Translations under genes and position numbers: made by a program
Source: Carboxydocella thermautotrophica
GTDB lineage: Bacteria > Bacillota > GCA-003054495 > Carboxydocellales > Carboxydocellaceae
Length of the DNA: 64,000 bases
Assembly (NCBI GenBank): GCA_003054495.1
Contig: CP028514.1
Location: 1,713,501 to 1,777,500, forward strand
Direction of reading: 5' to 3'
The notes under the pieces: generated by a model
Seen by the model: only the letters and a program-made list of their open reading frames with translations
Databases searched by the model: none
Told to the model about the DNA's origin: nothing
Shown here: positions 1-33,122 of the stretch, piece after piece
Position numbering within the stretch: the stretch's first letter is position 1
How the letters are laid out: each line of letters begins with the position of its first letter

Positions 1-672
1 GGTGGTGAGAATGGCCGGAACCGATGGCTGTTTAGGCAAATCATAAAATTCCGGTGCTTTAGGCAGGAGATAGAAAACATTGGTCCCGCCCAGGAATTGC
101 TCATCTAATCCATACAAGTTGGCTTCGGGATATAATTGCTTTACTTCTTCCAGCCGGGCTTTTGCCTTGCTGACCAGCTGGCTTCTTTCCCCGAACTGGA
201 CAGCTCCGGGCGAACAGGTTTTACTGCAAGCCGGGGTCAATCCTTCCGCTACCCGGTCAAAGCAAAGAGTGCACTTGCCCATTTTCTGCACTCCCTCATC
301 CACTTTGGGAATACCGAAGGGACAATATTTAGCACAATAGCCGCAGCCAATGCATTTGTCGTAATCCCTGACCACCGCTCCGGTTTCGGTATGGCTGAGG
401 GCATTTTCCGGGCAGGCCTTGATACAGGCCGCTTCTGTACAGTGCATACATTGCCTTTTGAAGAAAAACCATTGCACCTGGCCATTTTCTTCAACTTCCT
501 TGAATTTAATCAAATTATAGGTATGAGGCGTGGTATCCGGCATGGATTGCAAACCTGAGTAATAGACCGTCTTCTCCCCCGGCAACTGATTCCAGCTTTT
601 GCAGGCTGTTTGACAGCCCCGACAGCCGACACAAAGGGTCAGGTCGACAAACATGCTAAGTTTCTCTGCCAT
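1..672 (-). CDS. fdhB: Formate dehydrogenase iron-sulfur (beta) subunit, partial
   Basis: The first 224 codons are present; the gene runs off the left edge. The protein starts MAEKLSMFVDLTLCVGC and carries four ferredoxin-type cysteine groups: CVGCRGCQTAC near residue 14, CMHCTEAACIKAC near 75, CIGCGYCAKYC near 105, and CTLC with a later CSKTC near 130. This is the pattern of FdnH/HybA-type subunits with four [4Fe-4S] clusters, which pass electrons from the catalytic subunit towards a membrane partner. It begins one base after the fdhA stop codon, so the two are almost certainly co-translated. A membrane (gamma) subunit would be expected beyond the left edge but cannot be seen. Confidence 0.93.
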   Translation of the reverse strand, partial: MAEKLSMFVDLTLCVGCRGCQTACKSWNQLPGEKTVYYSGLQSMPDTTPHTYNLIKFKEVEENGQVQWFFFKRQCMHCTEAACIKACPENALSHTETGAVVRDYDKCIGCGYCAKYCPFGIPKVDEGVQKMGKCTLCFDRVAEGLTPACSKTCSPGAVQFGERSQLVSKAKARLEEVKQLYPEANLYGLDEQFLGGTNVFYLLPKAPEFYDLPKQPSVPAILTT

Positions 673-673
673 T

Positions 674-3600
674 CTACTCCGCCCTCCTTATATTGACCAA
701 GAAGGCCTTGTATTCGGGAATCATGGTATTGCCATCCCCTACATGCGGGGTCAGCTTGTTGGCAATATCACCGGTAATCAGCCCCTGATAGCCAAAGTGC
801 CAGGGCATCCCTACCTGATGGATTGTCTTGCCCATCACCGTCAGGGGGCGGAAACGTTTTGTGACCATAGCCCTTGCCTTGACCTGGCCGCGGCTGTTTT
901 CCACGATTACCATATCCCCATCCTTGATCTTCAGTTCAGAGGCCAGAGCTTCCCCGATTTCCACCACCATCTCCGGTACCAGTTCCGCCTGCCATTCCAG
1001 GTTTCTGGTCATCTGACCGGCCTGCCAGTGCTCTGAGAAGCGATAGGTGGTAGCCACATAGGGATATTTGGCCGGATCGGATTGTTTATCCGGCTCCCAG
1101 ACCTTGACAACCGGGTTCAGTTGTACCTTGGAGAATGGATTCTGAACCGGGCTCTCCCAGGGCTCATAGTGTTCCGGGAAAGGTCCTTCATTCATCTTAT
1201 CCTTGGCGAAGAGCCAGGCCTTGCCGTCATCCTGCATGATAAAGGGATTGAGGAAGGCCGGATCATCGGGGCCAATTACCGCCTTGAAGTCAGGCACGTC
1301 ATGGCCGACCCATTTCTTCTGCACAGCATCCCACCAGATGACAGCCTTGTCCGGATGCCAGGGCTTCCCGGTGGTGTCTGCTGAAGCCCGGTTGTACAGG
1401 ATACGGCGGTTCAGCGGCCAGGCATAAGACCATCTGGGATAAATACCCAGACCACTGGGATCATCCTGTTCCCGGAGCTGAGCCAGGTTTTTTCCTTCTT
1501 CGGGGTAAATTCCTGAATAAATCCAGTTACCACAGAGGGTGGAGCCATCATCCATTAAGGAGAGGAAGTTTTTGACCTGCTTGCCTGTAGCAGTTTCCTG
1601 ACCATTTATTTCGCGAGCAACCTTATCTACATCGCACTCATCACCATCACCAAAGTTCCAGTAGAGATACTTAATCGGTTCATCAGCAGGGTTGGTACTA
1701 TCCTTGTATGTTTCCTTCAGCCGACGCGCCAATTGATGTATAATATCCAGATCAGCTCGCGACTCACCCAGAGGTTCGACCGCCTGCCAGCGCCACTGAG
1801 ACCAGCGGCCGGAAGATGCAATGCTGCCCTCCTTTTCAAAGGAAGCAGCTGCCGGTAAAACAAAGACCTCAGTCTTGATCTCGGCCGGGTTAGCCCCTGC
1901 TTCTTTTGTCCAGAAGGTCATAGTTTCAGTCAGCCAGAGGTCGGCTGCGACCAGCCAATCCAGTTTCTCCAGAGCCTTTCTCTCTTTATTGGAATTTGGG
2001 CCACCTACAACCGGGTTCTGGCCCCAGCAGATAAGCCCTTTAAGTTTTCCTTTATACATGGCCTCAAAAAGTCCAATATGTGTATAGTTGGTCTTAGGAT
2101 CACGCTTGGGCAAATACTGATAGGCAAACTCATTATCCGGGCGGGCAGCATCACCCCACATTGCTTTTAGGTAACTTACAAAAAACTTAGGCAGGTTCGT
2201 CAAAAATCCACCTTTAGGAGTTTCTTTTTCAATATATGCTGAAAGGGTAGCATGTTCAGGATCCGCTGTCGGCGTAGGTATATAGCCTGTGATTATGTTG
2301 TTTAATAAACCGAAATCAGTAGAGCCCTGCACGTTGGACTCACCCCGCAGAGCATTTACACCGCCACCAGGAATACCTATATTACCCAGTAAGAGCTGCA
2401 GAATAGCATAGGCCCGCACATTTTGTGAACCAACAGTATGCTGGGTACCACCCATTGCATATAGAATCGTGCCTGCTTTATCAGGTACACCGGTAGCCGC
2501 ATAGGTTTTACAAATCTCTTCATAGAGCTCTTTCGGTGTACCGGTTACCTGGCATACGGTATCAATATCATAACGGGAATAATGCTTTTTCAGCAACTGG
2601 AAGACACAGCGCGGATCCTGTAAAGAGGGGTCACGCAAAGGCTTGCCTTCCGCATCAAGTTTATAGCCCCAGAGTTTTTTGTCATATTTTCTGTTTTTTT
2701 CATCATAGCCGCTGAACATACCATCATTGAAATCATAGGTGTCGGCTACAATGAAAGAAGCGTTGGTGTAATTGACTACATAGTCTTTGAAGTACAGGTT
2801 ATTTTGCAGGATATAATTGATCATACCCCCGATAAAGGCAATGTCAGTACCAGAACGCATCGGTGCATAAATATCGGCTTTGGAAGAGGTACGGGTAAAA
2901 CGCGGGTCAACGGAAATGATTTTGGCTCCGCGCTTCTCCTTGGCTTCCATCAGCCACTTGCTGGAGATAGGATGATTTTCAAAGGCATTGGAACCAATAA
3001 TCAATGCACAATCGGTATTTTTTAAATCAATCCAGTGGTTGGTCATTGCTCCACGACCAAATGAAGGCGCCAGACCGGCGACCGTAGAGCTGTGTCAAAT
3101 ACGGGCCTGGTGTTCGAGATAGACTACGCCCAGCCCCCGCATCAATTTTTGAACCAGATAGCATTCTTCATTATCTAAAGCTGCACCACCTAAAGAGGCG
3201 ATAGCTTCAGTCCGCATGACTTTGATGCCATCTTTTTCAACTTCAAAGGTCTTATCCCGGGTTTCTTTAATCCGCTTTGTAATTTCTGTCAACATCCAAT
3301 CCCAATCTTTTTCTTCAAACTTATCGCTGCCCGGAGCCCGGTAGAGGGGTTTAGTCAAGCGCCGGGGATTGGGCTTACCTACTGCTAGATTACGGATCTG
3401 GAAAATGGATGCTCCCTTACTACAGGCACCGCCCCGGTTAACCGGATGGTCCGGGTCCCCGTCAATCAACAATAACTCCCCATTAGCAGTGTCCACGTGA
3501 GCGATCATCCCACAGCCCGCACTGCAAAACGGGCACAGGGTAGGTACTCGTTTGGCATCCTTGATTCGGAACTGTTTGGCCTGGGCCCTGGCAGGTGCAG

Positions 3601-3682
3601 TATCAATGCCAAGTACACCCGCTGCCGCCAGAGCACCACTAAGACCAGAGATTTTGAGAAAATCCCGTCTTGTTACGGCCAT
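674..3682 (-). CDS. fdhA: Formate dehydrogenase catalytic subunit, selenocysteine-containing
   Basis: One gene of about 1002 residues that looks like two ORFs because an in-frame TGA at 3095-3097 encodes selenocysteine. The reading frame continues on both sides. The context ARI-U-HSSTVAGLAPSFGRGAMTN is the conserved active-site segment of Sec formate dehydrogenases. The N-terminus has a twin-arginine signal (RRDFLKISG) and a [4Fe-4S] motif (CPFCSAGCGM with a later GACSKG). The rest is a molybdopterin-bisMGD oxidoreductase. The length matches E. coli FdnG (about 1015 residues). The Tat signal places the enzyme outside the membrane, oxidising formate to CO2. The start is supported by a GGGGATGAAGGC leader. 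The tRNA-Sec gene lies 1.4 kb upstream. Confidence 0.96.
3066..3083 (-). promoter_or_regulatory. Bacterial SECIS hairpin in fdhA
   Basis: Eleven bases after the UGA codon the mRNA can fold as GG, bulged U, CGCC, loop GGUCU, GGCG, CC. The E. coli fdhF SECIS has the same layout: an 11-base offset, a bulged U and a GGUCU apical loop that binds SelB. All pairs in the stem are Watson-Crick. The function is inferred from this structural match. Confidence 0.88.
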
Positions 3683-3729
3683 GCCTTCATCCCCTTTCTC
3701 ATCTTAATTTTTTGAATTTTTGCTTTTCT

Positions 3730-3758
3730 ATTATCCATCAGCTTCCGCGATAGGTCAA
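3730..3758 (-). promoter_or_regulatory. Sigma-70-type promoter of the fdh operon
   Basis: On the minus strand the -35 box is TTGACC (3753-3758) and the -10 box is GATAAT (3730-3735), separated by 17 bp. The predicted transcript starts near 3723, giving a leader of about 40 bases before fdhA. Confidence 0.72.
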
Positions 3759-3773
3759 TTTTTTGTAAGTAAA

Positions 3774-3800
3774 GTAAATTATGAAACTAATGTAATTTAC
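3774..3800. promoter_or_regulatory. Inverted repeat upstream of the fdh promoter (candidate operator)
   Basis: GTAAATTA, 11 bases, TAATTTAC form perfect 8-bp arms. The centre is about 63 bp upstream of the predicted fdh start, a usual place for an activator. The neighbouring membrane regulator is the obvious candidate binder; this is inference. Confidence 0.5.
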
Positions 3801-3833
3801 AAAAATAGATCCTGTGGCCAGAAAAACCACAGG
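3801..3833 (-). terminator. Terminator of the Cache-HAMP-HTH regulator gene
   Basis: CCTGTGG / CCACAGG arms with a 9-base loop, followed on the minus strand by ATCTATTTTT. The hairpin begins just after the stop codon at 3835 and separates the regulator from the fdh promoter. Confidence 0.7.
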
Positions 3834-3834
3834 C

Positions 3835-4926
3835 TTATCCTTTTTCGAAAATCTGATATAACTTTACCGGTCTACCAATAGCTCCGTATTTTACTTCCAC
3901 CTGAATTCTACCGTTTTTTTCCAGGTAATCCAGATAGCGTTTAACTGTTACCCTGGTCAGATTCACCCCTTCAGCTATTTCTTCCGCCGACAGGGCCTCT
4001 GTTTGCTGGGTCAAATAGGCCAGTATCTGCTTTAAGGTAGATTCGTTCAGACCCTTGGGTAAACTTTCTTCAACGCTGGCAAGACTGGCAGGGGTATCAA
4101 CTTCGGCTGCCCCCTTTGAAGCCAGCTGAGGCTGCCCCTGCTGCTGACTGATCTGCTGGGTCAACTTCTGCAATTCCTCTACCATCTGGTTAAAAGCCTG
4201 AGCCAGTTGCCCGATCTCATTGGAGCTATCCACTTCCACCTTGACTGCCTGATGCCCGGAAGCTACTTCCATAGTTCCCGCTGTAATTTGCTGCAAGGGG
4301 CCGATAATAACCCGCTGGGTAAAAAACCAGCCCGCCAGTGCTACCAGCAAGGTTATACCAGCGCTGATGGAAATCACAGTAAAAATTGATTCTTTTAACA
4401 GCTGATCTGACAGTCGCTTGGAAATACCTACATAAAACATGCCAATGATGTTACCCTGACTATCCCGCAGGGGTTTATAAGCGGTCTGATAGTACTCGCC
4501 AACCACATTGGCTTCACCCAGGTACACCTGTCCATTCTTCAACACTGTGCGGGCCACCGCATCCGAAACTTTCGTTTTTAAAGCCCGCTGGCCATCCGGC
4601 CCCCGTACAGTAGTGGCCACTCTGGTATCACCCAGGAAAATGGTCACAGTATCCCCCGTTAGACTGGCAATATAATCTACCAGTTCCAGGTCGTTATTGA
4701 TTTTATGCTCGCCTTTATATAACTCGCCATTTTTCACCTGCCAGGAACCCGGGTACATTAAATCGATAATAGCTTCCCCTGTGGCCAGGTCGCTTTTAGC
4801 TTTAGTTTCCGTGGCCAGAATGGCCCTTTCCTTCATATGAATGCTGATCACAACAGTTAATAAGAGCGACAGCAGGAGGATAGGTCCCAGAACTAATAGT
4901 AATAATTGTTGTTTCAGGGACTTCAT
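3835..4926 (-). CDS. Membrane-anchored Cache-HAMP-HTH transcriptional regulator
   Basis: A 363-residue protein. Residues about 8-28 are a membrane helix. Residues about 35-175 are a single extracytoplasmic Cache-type sensor (YPGSWQVKNGELYKGEHKIN, then GDTVTIFLGDTRVATTV). A second helix spans about 183-207, followed by a HAMP domain to about 258. The C-terminal 70 residues (GLNESTLKQIL...GRPVKLYQIF) are a winged-HTH like that ending CitB/DcuR response regulators, and closely resemble the C-terminus of the response regulator at 25074-25760. There is no kinase, receiver or phosphorylatable histidine module. I infer a one-component sensor that binds an external ligand and acts on nearby DNA, probably the fdh promoter just downstream. 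It reads the same way as fdhA but is separated from it by a terminator. Confidence 0.88.
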   Translation of the reverse strand: MKSLKQQLLLLVLGPILLLSLLLTVVISIHMKERAILATETKAKSDLATGEAIIDLMYPGSWQVKNGELYKGEHKINNDLELVDYIASLTGDTVTIFLGDTRVATTVRGPDGQRALKTKVSDAVARTVLKNGQVYLGEANVVGEYYQTAYKPLRDSQGNIIGMFYVGISKRLSDQLLKESIFTVISISAGITLLVALAGWFFTQRVIIGPLQQITAGTMEVASGHQAVKVEVDSSNEIGQLAQAFNQMVEELQKLTQQISQQQGQPQLASKGAAEVDTPASLASVEESLPKGLNESTLKQILAYLTQQTEALSAEEIAEGVNLTRVTVKRYLDYLEKNGRIQVEVKYGAIGRPVKLYQIFEKG

Positions 4927-4996
4927 CTTTTATCACTCCCTACAAACATCTACTTACAGTTATACAGGAAAAGCCCGTATTTTTCAATCAATAAAT

Positions 4997-5025
4997 TTGA
5001 CAATAAGCATTTTATTTAATATAAT
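4997..5025 (+). promoter_or_regulatory. Promoter of selC
   Basis: Full-consensus TTGACA (4997-5002) and TATAAT (5020-5025) with a 17-bp spacer. Transcription should start near 5032, a few bases before the tRNA 5' end at 5038. Confidence 0.88.
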
Positions 5026-5037
5026 CTAATACGGTAA

Positions 5038-5135
5038 GGGAATGAATGAGGTCTGGTGGCCTCCCCGGCCTTCAAAGCCGCGTGTTTCGGGGTAGCCCCT
5101 CGAAAGGTGGGTTCGATTCCCACGCATTCCCGCCA
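5038..5135 (+). tRNA. selC: tRNA-Sec (anticodon UCA)
   Basis: 98 bases ending in an encoded CCA. The acceptor arm is GGGAATGA against GCATTCCC (seven pairs plus an A-G mismatch at position 8). The D stem has six pairs (GAGGTC/GGCCTC) with a four-base loop, the hallmark of selenocysteine tRNA. The anticodon UCA is at 5072-5074 in loop CTTCAAA. A long variable arm lies at about 5081-5105, and the T arm is GTGGG-TTCGATT-CCCAC. It decodes the UGA of the nearby fdhA. The selA, selB and selD genes are not in this window. Confidence 0.96.
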
Positions 5136-25073: not shown

Positions 25074-25760
25074 TCACCGCAAAAAATAGCGGTGAACCGG
25101 TCTGCCCACTGAACCATATTGAATCTCTTTTTGTATCAATTCCTCTTTCTCCAAATATTCCAGGTAGCGTCTTGCAGTCACCCGGGCCACCCCCACCAGT
25201 TCCGCTACCTCTTCAGCCGTCAGAGGAATGGCTTTTTGTCTGAGACAGGTAAGCACTTGTTCCAGGGTAAATAAGTTCAAGCCTTTCGGCAGCTCAGTAT
25301 GCTTGAGCTTTTCCTGAACAATCACCGGCACTGCCAGCTGATCGATATCCTTCTGGTCCACCTGCTCCTTGCTGATCAGCTGTTTGCGTCGCTCCAGATA
25401 GGTTTCCAGGGCCTGTTTCAGCCGCTCAAATTTAAAAGGCTTAATTAAATAATCCACTACCCCGAAGCGCAACATCTGCTGAACTGTCTCACTATCCTGG
25501 GCCGCGGTAATGGCTATGACGTCCACCGGTAAGGCTGCACTGCGGATCTGCTGAATTACCTGGATACCATTCGTATCCGGCAGATAGATATCCAGAATCA
25601 CCAGGTCGGGGTGCAGGTACCGGATTTCCTCCACTGCCCTGCTCCCCTGCCGCAATGCCCCTATCACCTGAAAGCCGGGAATCATATTGATAAAGCTCTG
25701 GTTCACCTCTACCACCATGGGGTCATCTTCAATCAGCAATACGCGCAGAGGTTGCACCAT
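25074..25760 (-). CDS. CitB/DcuR family response regulator
   Basis: 228 residues. The receiver domain (about 1-125) has acidic residues EDD near 12, the phospho-acceptor Asp in LVILDIYLPD near 57, TAAQ near 85 and the lysine in YLIKPFKFE near 107. The C-terminal region (about 155-228) is the CitT/DcuR-type winged HTH (AEEVAELVGVARVTARRYLEYLEK). It should activate the dctP operon just downstream in response to the paired kinase. Its C-terminus is very similar to that of the membrane regulator at 3835-4926. The gene overlaps the kinase gene by 32 bp. Confidence 0.94.
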   Translation of the reverse strand: MVQPLRVLLIEDDPMVVEVNQSFINMIPGFQVIGALRQGSRAVEEIRYLHPDLVILDIYLPDTNGIQVIQQIRSAALPVDVIAITAAQDSETVQQMLRFGVVDYLIKPFKFERLKQALETYLERRKQLISKEQVDQKDIDQLAVPVIVQEKLKHTELPKGLNLFTLEQVLTCLRQKAIPLTAEEVAELVGVARVTARRYLEYLEKEELIQKEIQYGSVGRPVHRYFLR

Positions 25761-27348
25761 CCATTACCCCCTCATAACTGAATTTAACCAGAAAAAGGGT
25801 TCCCTGCTGGGGCCGTGAGCGCAAAATAATTTTACCTCCGGCGTTTTCCGCCTGCTGTTTGATTAAATACAGGCCCAGCCCTCTCCCCTCTGGCCGTTTG
25901 GTAGAATACCCCAGCTGAAAATAGCGGTCAAAATCCACATCAACCAGACCCGGGCCCCCATCGGCCACCCAGAGTATCAATTCCTTTTGATCCTGTTTGA
26001 TCCCGCATTTCACCCAGCGCTTTTCCTGCTGGCAGGGTAATACTGCTTCCATAGCGTTTTCCAGCAGGTTCCCCATAATCAGCACGATGTCACTGGCAGT
26101 CAAATTGGCTGGCAGGGTCTTTAACTCTGATTTTCGGTCCAGTTCAAACCGGATATTCAGTTCCTTGGCCCGACCCATTTTGCCCAGCAACAGCCCGGCA
26201 ATAGCCGGATCTTTGACCTGTCGCGTAAGAAAAGCTGTGATTTCCTGTTGCTGTTCCGTAATGCGGAAGATATAATCCAGCGCCTCCTGATAACGATGAA
26301 GCTGGATTAACCCGGCGATGGTATGGAGCTTATTCAGGTTTTCGTGGTTCTGCACCCGCAGGGCCTCGACAAACTTTTTCACCCCGGTTAATTCTTCCGC
26401 CAGCCGCCTTACTTCCGACTTATCCCGAAACACCGCTACCGCCCCGATGATTTTCTCCCGCCAGCGGATGGGCAAGCGATTGGAAACAATGATCTTGCGG
26501 TTAAATACCAGTTCCTGATTGAATTGACTGCTGCCGGTGCTGATCACTTCCGGCAGTGCGGTATTGGGGATAACCTCATTTATTGGACGTCCCAGCAATT
26601 CTTCCTCTGCTATGCCCAGAATTTGTCGGGCCGCAGGATTAATCAAGGTAATGCGATTTTCCCGGTCGATAGCGATAATTCCTTCATTAATAGCCGCCAG
26701 GATCGCCTCCCTTTCTTCCATCAAAGCGGCGATTTCCTCCGGTTCCAGGCCAAAAATGGCCTGCTTGACATGAGCAGCCAGATAAAAAGCACCAATAGCA
26801 CCAGCGAACAGGGCGAGGATCATCGTCAGATATATACTGCTTTTCCACTCCAGCAGCACTTCCCCCAGGGAAGGGGTCAAAATCCCCACCACTACTACTC
26901 CCACCTGGGCAATGCCCCGTTCATCCTTAATCGGGACAAAGGCACGCACAGCTTCCCCGTTGACTCCCACTGCCAGAGAAGTATATTCATTATCGGCAAA
27001 GGCCGGTCCCTCATCTCCACCGGCAAAAATCGTGCCGATCCGATTGGCCACCGGATGGGATAAGCGCTTTTTGTTCATATCCAGTACCACAATATAATCT
27101 ACATTGGTAGCCAGCCGAATCCGTTCCACATAAGGCTGAATAATTTTTTCTGCCCCCGGACGCCCGACATTTTGCTGAATCAAAGGAGATTGGGCCACGG
27201 TGCGGCCAATGGCCAGGGCCCGCCGCCCCAGTTCAGAACGAAAATCCTGAACTGATTGCCAGCTCACTACCACCGCCACAATGGTTACCGAAAACATGAC
27301 GATCAGAAAAGCCAGCAGGGTCATTTTGGTCCGCAAGCGTATAGTCAT
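25729..27348 (-). CDS. CitA/DcuS family sensor histidine kinase
   Basis: 539 residues. The first membrane helix is at about 10-32. An extracytoplasmic PASC/Cache sensor follows (TNVDYIVVLDMNKKRLSHP, the pattern that binds citrate or C4-dicarboxylates). A second helix lies near 170-195, then a cytoplasmic PAS domain (about 215-320), the phospho-accepting His in VQNHENLNKLHTIAGLIQL near 340, and an ATPase domain (NLLENAMEAV near 440, DGGPGL, GRGLGLYLIKQ). It senses an external organic acid and phosphorylates the CitB-type regulator encoded next. Confidence 0.94.
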   Translation of the reverse strand: MTIRLRTKMTLLAFLIVMFSVTIVAVVVSWQSVQDFRSELGRRALAIGRTVAQSPLIQQNVGRPGAEKIIQPYVERIRLATNVDYIVVLDMNKKRLSHPVANRIGTIFAGGDEGPAFADNEYTSLAVGVNGEAVRAFVPIKDERGIAQVGVVVVGILTPSLGEVLLEWKSSIYLTMILALFAGAIGAFYLAAHVKQAIFGLEPEEIAALMEEREAILAAINEGIIAIDRENRITLINPAARQILGIAEEELLGRPINEVIPNTALPEVISTGSSQFNQELVFNRKIIVSNRLPIRWREKIIGAVAVFRDKSEVRRLAEELTGVKKFVEALRVQNHENLNKLHTIAGLIQLHRYQEALDYIFRITEQQQEITAFLTRQVKDPAIAGLLLGKMGRAKELNIRFELDRKSELKTLPANLTASDIVLIMGNLLENAMEAVLPCQQEKRWVKCGIKQDQKELILWVADGGPGLVDVDFDRYFQLGYSTKRPEGRGLGLYLIKQQAENAGGKIILRSRPQQGTLFLVKFSYEGVMDGATSARIAD

Positions 27349-31149: not shown

Positions 31150-31182
31150 TTAGAGCCCCAGGCGTTAAGCCTGCGGCTCTAA
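31150..31182 (-). terminator. Terminator at the 3' end of the chemoreceptor gene
   Basis: TTAGAGCC / GGCTCTAA outer arms with an inner CAGGC / GCCTG stem and a five-base loop, followed on the minus strand by TTTTATG. The stop codon of the chemoreceptor lies inside the hairpin. Confidence 0.75.
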
Positions 31183-33027
31183 ATGAAATTGACTTACTGC
31201 TTCCTCCATTTCCCTGGTCATTTCCACCAGCTGCTCACTGGCGGTAGAAATTTCCGCAGTCAAACCCTGCAGTTGTTCACTAAGGGCTGACATCTCCTGG
31301 GCACTGGCGCTGTTTTCACCAGCCATTTCCGTAATTTTAACCATTACTGTTTCAATAGTCCTGGCCGCAGCACTAATTTCTTCTGCCTGAGCAGCCGATT
31401 CCTTAATGGCCCTGGTCAGCTCTTTGACAGCAGCAACAGCACCTTTACCAGCCTGATTAATGTTTTCCGATTCGCCAGCAATCCGTTCCACCTGATTAAA
31501 CGTACTGTTCATTTGCTGAACTATGGTTTCCAGCGCCTGTCCGGTGCGCTCAGCCAGGCTGATGCCAGTTTCCACTTCTGACTCCCCTTGTACCATACCG
31601 TCAACCGCACGCTGGATGCCCGCCTGAATATCGTGGACCAGCTGGCTGATTTCCCGGGCCGCTCCTGCCGACTTTTCGGCCAGCTTTCTCACCTCATCAG
31701 CCACCACGGCAAAACCTTTGCCATGTTCGCCGGCCCGGGCTGCCTCAATAGCAGCATTTAAGGCTAGCAAATTAGTCTGTTCGGCAATGTCCACAATCAC
31801 CTGGATTATCCCATCAATCTGATTGGAAGCAGCCCCCAGGCGTTTAACCTGTTCCGCAGCATAACTGACGGACTGGCGCACTTTGGCCATCCCGGCAACA
31901 GTTTCAGCCACTACTTGTCTGCTGTCACTGGCCACCTGCTGCGTCTGGGTGGCCTGATTAGCCAGCTCCTGGTTTTCTTCACTGATTTTACGAATCCCGG
32001 CAGCGGTAACAGCTACCATTTTTCTTACTTCTTCTGCCTGTTCACTTTGTTCTTCCAGCAAAGCCGCAATCTGGTTCACGCTTTCAACCAGATTCTCCAC
32101 TGCACTCAGGGCCTGCTGGCTTTCTCCTACCTGGACATGGGCTTTCTGGTCAACAACCGTTATGGCAGCTGCCAGCTGACCATTGGCTTCCGCCCCATTC
32201 TCAGCCCCTGCTGCCATTTGCCGGGCAAAGTGGGTCAGATCAACGGCTTTCATTTTCATGCCTTCTACCAGAGTATACAAATGTTCTACCATTTGATTAA
32301 AGCTGCGCTCCAGCTGACCAAATTCATCCTTTCGGCCCAAATTCAATCTGGTATAAAGCTGTCCACTGGCTACCAGCTGCATTCCTGATTGCAGTTCTTT
32401 AATGGGCTTTAACAAATGGCGCTGTAAGACAAAACCCAATACCAGCGCACCTACTAGAGATAGAGCTCCTAAACCGATGGTCCGCCAGCGGAAAGCTGCA
32501 GCCAGCTGGTCATAATAGGCATTGGGCACACCCACATAAAGTATGCCGATAACTTTCCCTTCCGGGTTTTTGATCGGCTCGTAGATAGTCTGGTACATGC
32601 GGCCGACTACTTCTGCCTCACCAAGAAAGGTTTTCTGTTCTACCAGCACTTCCTGGCGAACTTTTTCAGAAACTTTTGTACCCACCGCCCGGCTGCCATC
32701 AGGCCTGCGAACATTAGTAGCTACCCGAACATCGCCCTGAAAGATGGTAACGGTATCGCCTGTTTTCTGGCCGATTAAATCCACAGCAGAATAATCATCA
32801 TTGATCCGGTACTCGCCTTTGTAAAGCTGACCATCGCGAACCTGCCAGGGCCCGGGATATTTGTAATTCAGGATAATTTTACTCATTTCCAGGTCGCTTC
32901 GAAGTTTTTGTCTGGCAGCTGCCAGCAACTGGTCTTTGGCAGCTGCTGCAGTATAAAAAGCTAACAATAGCACTGCAAAAAAAGTTAATCCAACTAGTGC
33001 TGCATAAAGTTTTCTGGCATAACTCAC
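31165..33027 (-). CDS. Methyl-accepting chemotaxis protein with Cache sensor
   Basis: About 620 residues from a GTG at 33027 preceded by GGGGAAGCGGA. A membrane helix is followed by an extracytoplasmic Cache domain of about 140 residues ([37 protein letters not shown]), a second helix, a HAMP domain ([20 protein letters not shown]) and a long signalling coiled coil. Its conserved tip contains [19 protein letters not shown] and [20 protein letters not shown]. It should direct CheA. The sensor domain is closely similar to that of the regulator at 3835-4926, so the two probably see the same or related ligand. Confidence 0.94.
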
Positions 33028-33122
33028 TCCGCTTCCCCTTTCTTTTTGTTTTTTAGAATTATTTCTACATTTTATGATTAAATCCTGCACAATTTTTGTT
33101 TTTTTGACAAAATTTCAACAAA

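Follow-up and report, generated by a model that had tools for sequence, protein, structure and literature searches.

The gene at positions 3835–4926 (minus strand) of the window, the 64 000-nucleotide stretch of Carboxydocella thermautotrophica DNA analysed here, encodes a 363-residue membrane protein composed of a Cache sensor, a HAMP domain and a winged helix–turn–helix (HTH) domain. It is a one-component regulator that contains neither a kinase nor a receiver. We consider it likely that this protein stays tethered to the membrane, detects external formate through Arg102, Thr105 and Thr118, and relays the signal through HAMP to the HTH, which would act on the neighbouring operon. The observations that carry this reading are the architecture, the predicted fold, the residue triad, the genomic linkage to formate and hydrogen genes, and a shared promoter element. 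From them we infer the ligand, the contact with DNA, the sign of regulation (activation) and action without proteolytic release.

Domains were assigned from the open reading frames, from Pfam and from an AlphaFold2 model calculated on a 17-row alignment (mean pLDDT 88.5); all are encoded on the minus strand. The two membrane helices, read off the sequence at approximately residues 7–29 (4840–4908) and 181–204 (4315–4386), fall within long model helices (4–57 and 170–222, respectively) that flank the Cache fold. The sCache_3_3 sensor domain comprises residues 75–178 (4393–4704; Pfam E = 1.2 × 10−36) and the HAMP domain residues 205–253 (4168–4314; E = 6.8 × 10−15). A model helix (237–263) is followed by a linker, residues 265–286 (4069–4134), that is predicted to be disordered (pLDDT < 50), and by the CitB/DpiA-type winged HTH at approximately residues 289–359 (3850–4062), which is confidently modelled from residue 295 to 359. 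The HTH assignment draws on Pfam, the comparison with Bacilli, the model and the HTH tree; the Pfam matches are HTH_11 (E = 4.3 × 10−8) and the DpiA-like HTH_64 (E = 3.3 × 10−5; 24.4 bits against a cut-off of 27, and 27.6 bits in a second search). No kinase, receiver or MCP domain occurs among all 15 Pfam families that match the protein at E ≤ 0.001; MCPsignal, HisKA and HATPase are absent from its Pfam matches, as is the receiver of the CitB/DcuR response regulators. Its NCBIfam kinase matches lie far below the cut-offs, and the rows shown fall in the Cache, membrane–HAMP or HTH parts. A membrane helix and a DNA-binding domain are present in one chain, and the arrangement proposed in the first-pass annotation, namely two membrane helices, Cache, HAMP and winged HTH with no kinase or receiver, is borne out by both Pfam and the model.

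The protein is 100% identical in the other assembly of C. thermautotrophica. In addition, 65 HTH proteins of the same type, all from one phylum, were gathered from loci picked for their resemblance to the window protein, irrespective of gene neighbourhood, and were identified in the fetched loci by BLAST to its Cache and HTH parts; the short duplicates L109–L135 were left out of the counts. Because these homologues share the layout, a frameshift is excluded. With the identical second copy, they rule out a frameshifted kinase, and the gene is intact, with no histidine kinase hidden by a sequencing error. At least 16 of 398 genomes sampled in the phylum have a match (the window species counted twice), where a match is either full-length or a Cache–HAMP match in an ORF later shown to carry the HTH. 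In the class of genome G154, a match at E ≤ 1 × 10−50 occurs in 40 of 82 genomes; in 36 of these it lies in an ORF of 363–449 residues and in four only in ORFs of chemoreceptor length. Among the 26 proteins of alignment A1 (Pfam E ≤ 0.001), sCache_3_3 was found in 26, HTH_64 in 21, HTH_11 in 19 and HAMP in 18; MCPsignal was found in one and HisKA with HATPase in one, neither of which is the window protein.

The sensor resembles solved formate-binding domains. When the window model was compared with known structures, the best match was PDB entry 8py0 (Z = 20.1; 2.0 Å for 149 residues), followed by 8py1 (Z = 18.8; 1.8 Å for 134 residues); an integrative WalK model came third (Z = 13.3), ahead of DcuS and CitA (Z = 12.6). 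Foldseek placed the WalK model first and 8py0 and 8py1 next, and a sequence search of the PDB puts these two entries first. Both are chemoreceptor sensor domains crystallized with formate, from Oscillibacter (8py0) and Asticcacaulis (8py1). Alignment with them identifies the same three residues as the putative formate-binding triad Arg102 (4621–4623), Thr105 (4612–4614) and Thr118 (4573–4575; triad 4573–4623, minus strand), and the R-x2-T-x12-T spacing equals that of Arg142, Thr145 and Thr158 in the formate receptor PacF, where changes at these positions affect formate binding according to the available text of PMC12501870. In the accessible part of PMC12415202, a chemoreceptor sCache_3_3 domain that has the reported residues is likewise described as binding formate. 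The role of the arginine is not simple, because in the formate receptor Atu0526 an Arg→Ala change raised the in vitro affinity yet abolished chemotaxis, as given in the available portion of PMC8698456. On this model-based comparison, the sensor domain of the regulator appears to belong with the formate-type sCache_3_3 sensors, and formate would be its ligand.

Of the 55 proteins linked to formate dehydrogenase (26/26), formate channel (13/13) or hydrogenase (15/16) genes, 54 retain the triad, as do the one hyp-linked HTH protein and the three without such neighbours. The whole triad is found in none of the six HTH proteins beside a UGSC selenoprotein gene. It is present in all 22 chemoreceptors (MCPs) with the same sensor and in four of five other Cache proteins, so that it characterizes the sensor class as a whole and does not set the regulator family apart. 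One relative before hydrogenase genes (L195:9436–10611) has a triad changed to P-T-G together with other sensor changes and is perhaps decaying or re-tuned. Triad-less relatives occur near MauE/DoxX-like and UGSC-selenoprotein genes at L081, L085, L105, L107 and L108, and L107 holds two regulator–UGSC pairs in tandem. The window itself contains a chemoreceptor (31165–33090, minus strand) whose sCache_3_3 domain has these R-T-T residues and which by its sequence is a candidate formate chemoreceptor.

The association with formate dehydrogenase that had been noted for the single locus was made strong by a census of the 65 homologues against the 22 chemoreceptors. Neighbours were identified from NCBIfam matches of cluster representatives, several of them below the curated cut-off, and from reference BLAST. 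Fifty-three of the 65 proteins are encoded upstream of, and co-directionally with, a formate dehydrogenase operon (26; gap of 138–580 bases), the formate channel gene focA (13; 204–543 bases, with one case of 2215) or NuoEF-like/[FeFe]-hydrogenase genes (14; 754–1379 bases to the NuoF-like gene). At L099, focA is 2.2 kb away behind an opposite-strand ORF. Two more (L093 and L095) face [FeFe]-hydrogenase genes in convergent orientation, one precedes hypB–hypF, six precede a UGSC selenoprotein gene and three have no such gene, two of these with a contig end 504 and 17 bases downstream; L104 has no fdh, foc or hydrogenase neighbour. None of the 22 chemoreceptors with the same sensor (20 high-scoring ones, the window one and that at L106) has an fdh, foc or hydrogenase gene within 8 kb, the L145 locus covering just 4.6 kb on one side, and one of the five other Cache proteins has one at this distance. 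Many of the 65 loci come from one genome family, f6; co-directional linkage is found in eight families (f1, f5, f56, f13, f107, f6, f111 and f30), and a ninth, f74, shows convergent linkage. Two or three copies with different targets are present in some f6 genomes: G154 has fdh-, foc- and hydrogenase-linked copies together, and at L171 two regulators lie in tandem, one before focA and the other before hydrogenase genes.

In the window, the probable targets follow the regulator on the same strand. The formate dehydrogenase α subunit (674–3682, minus strand) is a selenoprotein made up of two ORFs joined by a UGA codon (U196), identified from the ORFs, a SECIS_3 match at 3042–3100 and reference BLAST, and it begins with the twin-arginine-like signal MAVTRRDFLK. 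The β subunit (1–672, minus strand), which is cut by the window edge, is 59% identical to L090:9698–10516, whose best NCBIfam match is FDH-beta, below the cut-off. Because the enzyme carries a twin-arginine-like signal and selenocysteine, its substrate is probably external formate, and for an external substrate an outward-facing sensor would be sensible. A tRNA-Sec gene (4997–5135, plus strand) lies just upstream of the regulator gene, divergent from it and near the selenocysteine-containing formate dehydrogenase; its promoter has the full consensus (TTGACA-17-TATAAT).

A terminator-like hairpin follows the regulator gene at 3811–3833 (minus strand; five such sites in 3600–5100, with 1.5 expected), and a promoter-like site precedes fdh at 3730–3758 (minus strand), with TTGACC (3753–3758) and GATAAT (3730–3735) separated by a 17-bp spacer and ten of 12 positions matching the consensus; two promoter-like sites were found in 3600–5100 against 2.0 expected by chance. 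With this hairpin after the regulator gene and the promoter-like site before fdh, the latter is probably a separate transcription unit. A conserved element, ACTTTACTTACAAAAAATTGACC (3753–3775, minus strand), places a TTAC box next to the −35 hexamer and is the candidate operator. The inverted repeat GTAAATTA/TAATTTAC that had been pointed out earlier does exist, at 3774–3800.

The element was scored with a matrix from which the family of the tested locus was held out. The window element scored 17.0, compared with 2.2 ± 3.3 in dinucleotide shuffles, and none of 200 shuffles reached its score; since the motif seeds were chosen after reading the sequences, the window's included, the p values for this element are somewhat optimistic. 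L090 and L091 likewise gave 0/200, L089 and L159 gave p = 0.005 each and L093 gave 0.01; L092 was borderline (0.05). Four of the ten formate- or hydrogen-linked regulators of other families were not significant with this matrix (L082, 0.095; L095, 0.185; L096, 0.225; L094, 0.255), and none of the six UGSC-linked regions was (p from 0.07 to 0.97). Ten f6 rows drawn at random gave six values at or below 0.045 and four from 0.095 to 0.465. A 41-bp matrix built from 45 f6 regions alone gave p = 0.01 for the window (2/200 shuffles) and p ≤ 0.04 for L082, L089, L090, L091, L092 and L159; L093–L096 gave 0.105–0.235, a fixed matrix being weak where the spacing differs, and the positions at which it scores best do not always coincide with those from the held-out matrix. 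In the window, L090 and L091 the TTAC box stands six bases before TTGAC, and the TTAC element also occurs in regulator loci of other families. For MaeR, a regulator of the CitB family, the available text of PMC5457438 gives three tandem TTATT(A/T)AA repeats as the binding site, and this repeat is close to TTATTTAC. A scan of the window's own genome for the site with at most one mismatch gave two matches, compared with four for the reversed control, and found no wider regulon. By eye, the element is not apparent upstream of the regulator genes themselves. Upstream of 21 of the 65 regulator genes, all in f6 (e.g. L099, L100, L103, L163, L186 and L192), there is another promoter pattern, AGG followed by an A/T-rich stretch, approximately 13 bases and CGCGAAT, for which shuffles expect 0.4 occurrences, the pattern having been built after these regions were seen; we take it to be a sigma-H-like promoter.

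The two halves of the protein appear to have different relatives. Of the 92 sensor proteins in the alignment, 71 went into a Cache–HAMP tree, one family having been thinned by leaving out the odd-numbered loci from L157 onwards; all 44 HTH-type rows tested fall on one side of a 97* branch. In an HTH tree of 44 of the 65 HTH proteins and 14 rows labelled as response regulators, which has few columns, leaves out the near-copies L038, L040, L041 and L044 and includes no response-regulator row from L023, a 100/96* branch parts the membrane-bound HTHs from the response regulators. A single one-component clade gave p-AU = 0.051 with the L094 membrane HTH protein counted as a response regulator. This protein (L094:17911–18645) has 244 residues and the same HTH with no Cache, starts a NuoEF/[FeFe]-hydrogenase gene run and sits among the membrane-bound HTHs in the tree; judged from its sequence, it is another sensor front on the same output. 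Given the branches in the two trees, the protein type arose, probably in a single event, by fusion of a chemoreceptor-like front to an HTH of the CitB type.

It had been suggested that a two-component pair collapsed into one protein, with an HTH very like that of the response regulator at 25074–25760. The likeness stands at 45% identity, but regulators in Bacilli are nearer: in 14 Bacilli loci found by the HTH domain, a search that favours close matches, 11 are 53–62% identical and three are 40–46% identical over longer stretches. The collapse is not upheld. The kinase of the window pair (25074–27348) has sCache_3_2 and PAS and no HAMP match in Pfam, and a derivation from this citrate-type pair was rejected on account of the chemoreceptor-like front half, best matched by formate-bound chemoreceptor domains, and the nearer Bacilli HTHs. 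The segment 23913–27348 (minus strand) holds a DcuS/DcuR-like two-component pair next to an ORF that, judged from its sequence, resembles a TRAP-type solute-binding protein.

The mechanism that we favour would begin with external formate bound by Arg102, Thr105 and Thr118 and closure of the Cache pocket. The packing of HAMP and of the second membrane helix would then shift, and a dimer driven by HAMP would bring its two winged HTHs to the A+T-rich TTAC boxes beside the −35 hexamer. Recruitment of polymerase from the membrane would most likely activate the neighbouring operon, which here encodes an apparently exported selenocysteine formate dehydrogenase; paralogues would serve FocA and the [FeFe] hydrogenase. 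The sign could be the opposite: the same sensor might act on the same target with the protein repressing fdh and formate lifting the repression. The window promoter is near consensus (10/12), so that an activator may be unneeded, and the element touches the −35 hexamer. The boxes, however, do not cover the start site but lie upstream of the −35, and by eye the hexamers of many f6 promoters look weak (GTGAC, TAAGCT); both points would fit activation better, and we regard repression as unlikely, at perhaps the level of a serious minority view. Somewhat less probable still is that another small carboxylate, or several, takes the place of formate. Ligand switches do occur in Cache families, and the triad is gone from the UGSC-linked branch, but the two best structural matches hold formate, the window protein keeps the triad and formate genes adjoin the regulator in many loci.

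We give about the same low weight to release of the HTH by proteolysis in the linker 265–286 and its action as a soluble factor. The predicted disorder of this linker would suit cleavage; against it, the linker is not known to contain a cleavage site, HAMP as the connector suggests conformational signalling, and CadC acts without cleavage according to the available part of PMC5936718. A decayed gene, once for a chemoreceptor or a histidine kinase and ending by chance in an HTH-like stretch, would agree with a front half akin to chemoreceptors but has a negligible probability: 65 relatives carry the HTH and their neighbours are mostly conserved, and it is this conservation that refutes it.

Tethered, formate-responsive activation would combine a known sensor class with a known DNA-binding class, and the combination with a definite regulon hypothesis is what is new. 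The formate-binding chemoreceptor sensors (8py0, 8py1 and PacF) have the same Cache fold and R-T-T residues, but their output is chemotaxis, in place of which the regulator has a DNA-binding domain. With the CitB, DcuR, CitT and MaeR response regulators it appears to share the winged HTH and, in its candidate operators, A+T-rich TTATT-type sites; unlike them it is membrane-bound and lacks the receiver, and hence its phosphorylation site. ToxR and CadC likewise combine sensing and DNA binding in a single membrane chain, but in the reverse order: in ToxR/CadC-like proteins the DNA-binding domain comes first, followed by one helix and, at the C terminus, the sensor, as set out in the available text of PMC5936718, whereas the regulator has two helices with Cache and HAMP and a C-terminal HTH. 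The impression in the first-pass annotation that no family with this architecture had been described holds in part. No title or abstract found in a literature search, with most subscription papers outside its scope, describes the regulator family or its targets, and the accessible text of a survey of transmembrane transcription regulators (PMC10269533) contains neither the word Cache nor the word HAMP; the combination had, however, already been counted in 2016, when 14 of 276 sCache_3_3 proteins were listed with a transcription-factor domain (Upadhyay et al., 2016; PMC4822843, Table 1), a count that, in the available part of that paper, comes with neither a family nor a target or ligand. A formate dehydrogenase operon of Desulfitobacterium hafniense is upregulated when hydrogen is the donor, and no regulator of it is named in the portion of PMC9888536 available.

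On balance, and by a modest margin of confidence, we think that the phylum runs a formate, and perhaps hydrogen, regulon in which dedicated paralogous membrane-tethered sensor-activators each serve one of formate dehydrogenase, the formate channel and the [FeFe] hydrogenase, having arisen once from a formate-chemoreceptor front and a CitB-type HTH, with a triad-less branch that serves the UGSC selenoprotein and answers another signal. The proposal yields a ligand hypothesis with three named residues and a predicted operator of approximately 23 bp, for which the triad-less branch is a natural control, and it makes the regulator a candidate part for formate biosensors. If it is true, chemotaxis and gene control would share one formate sensor, and external formate would act on transcription by a kinase-free route at the genes of formate and hydrogen exchange, in a setting of anaerobic metabolism as far as the lifestyle can be told from the genes.
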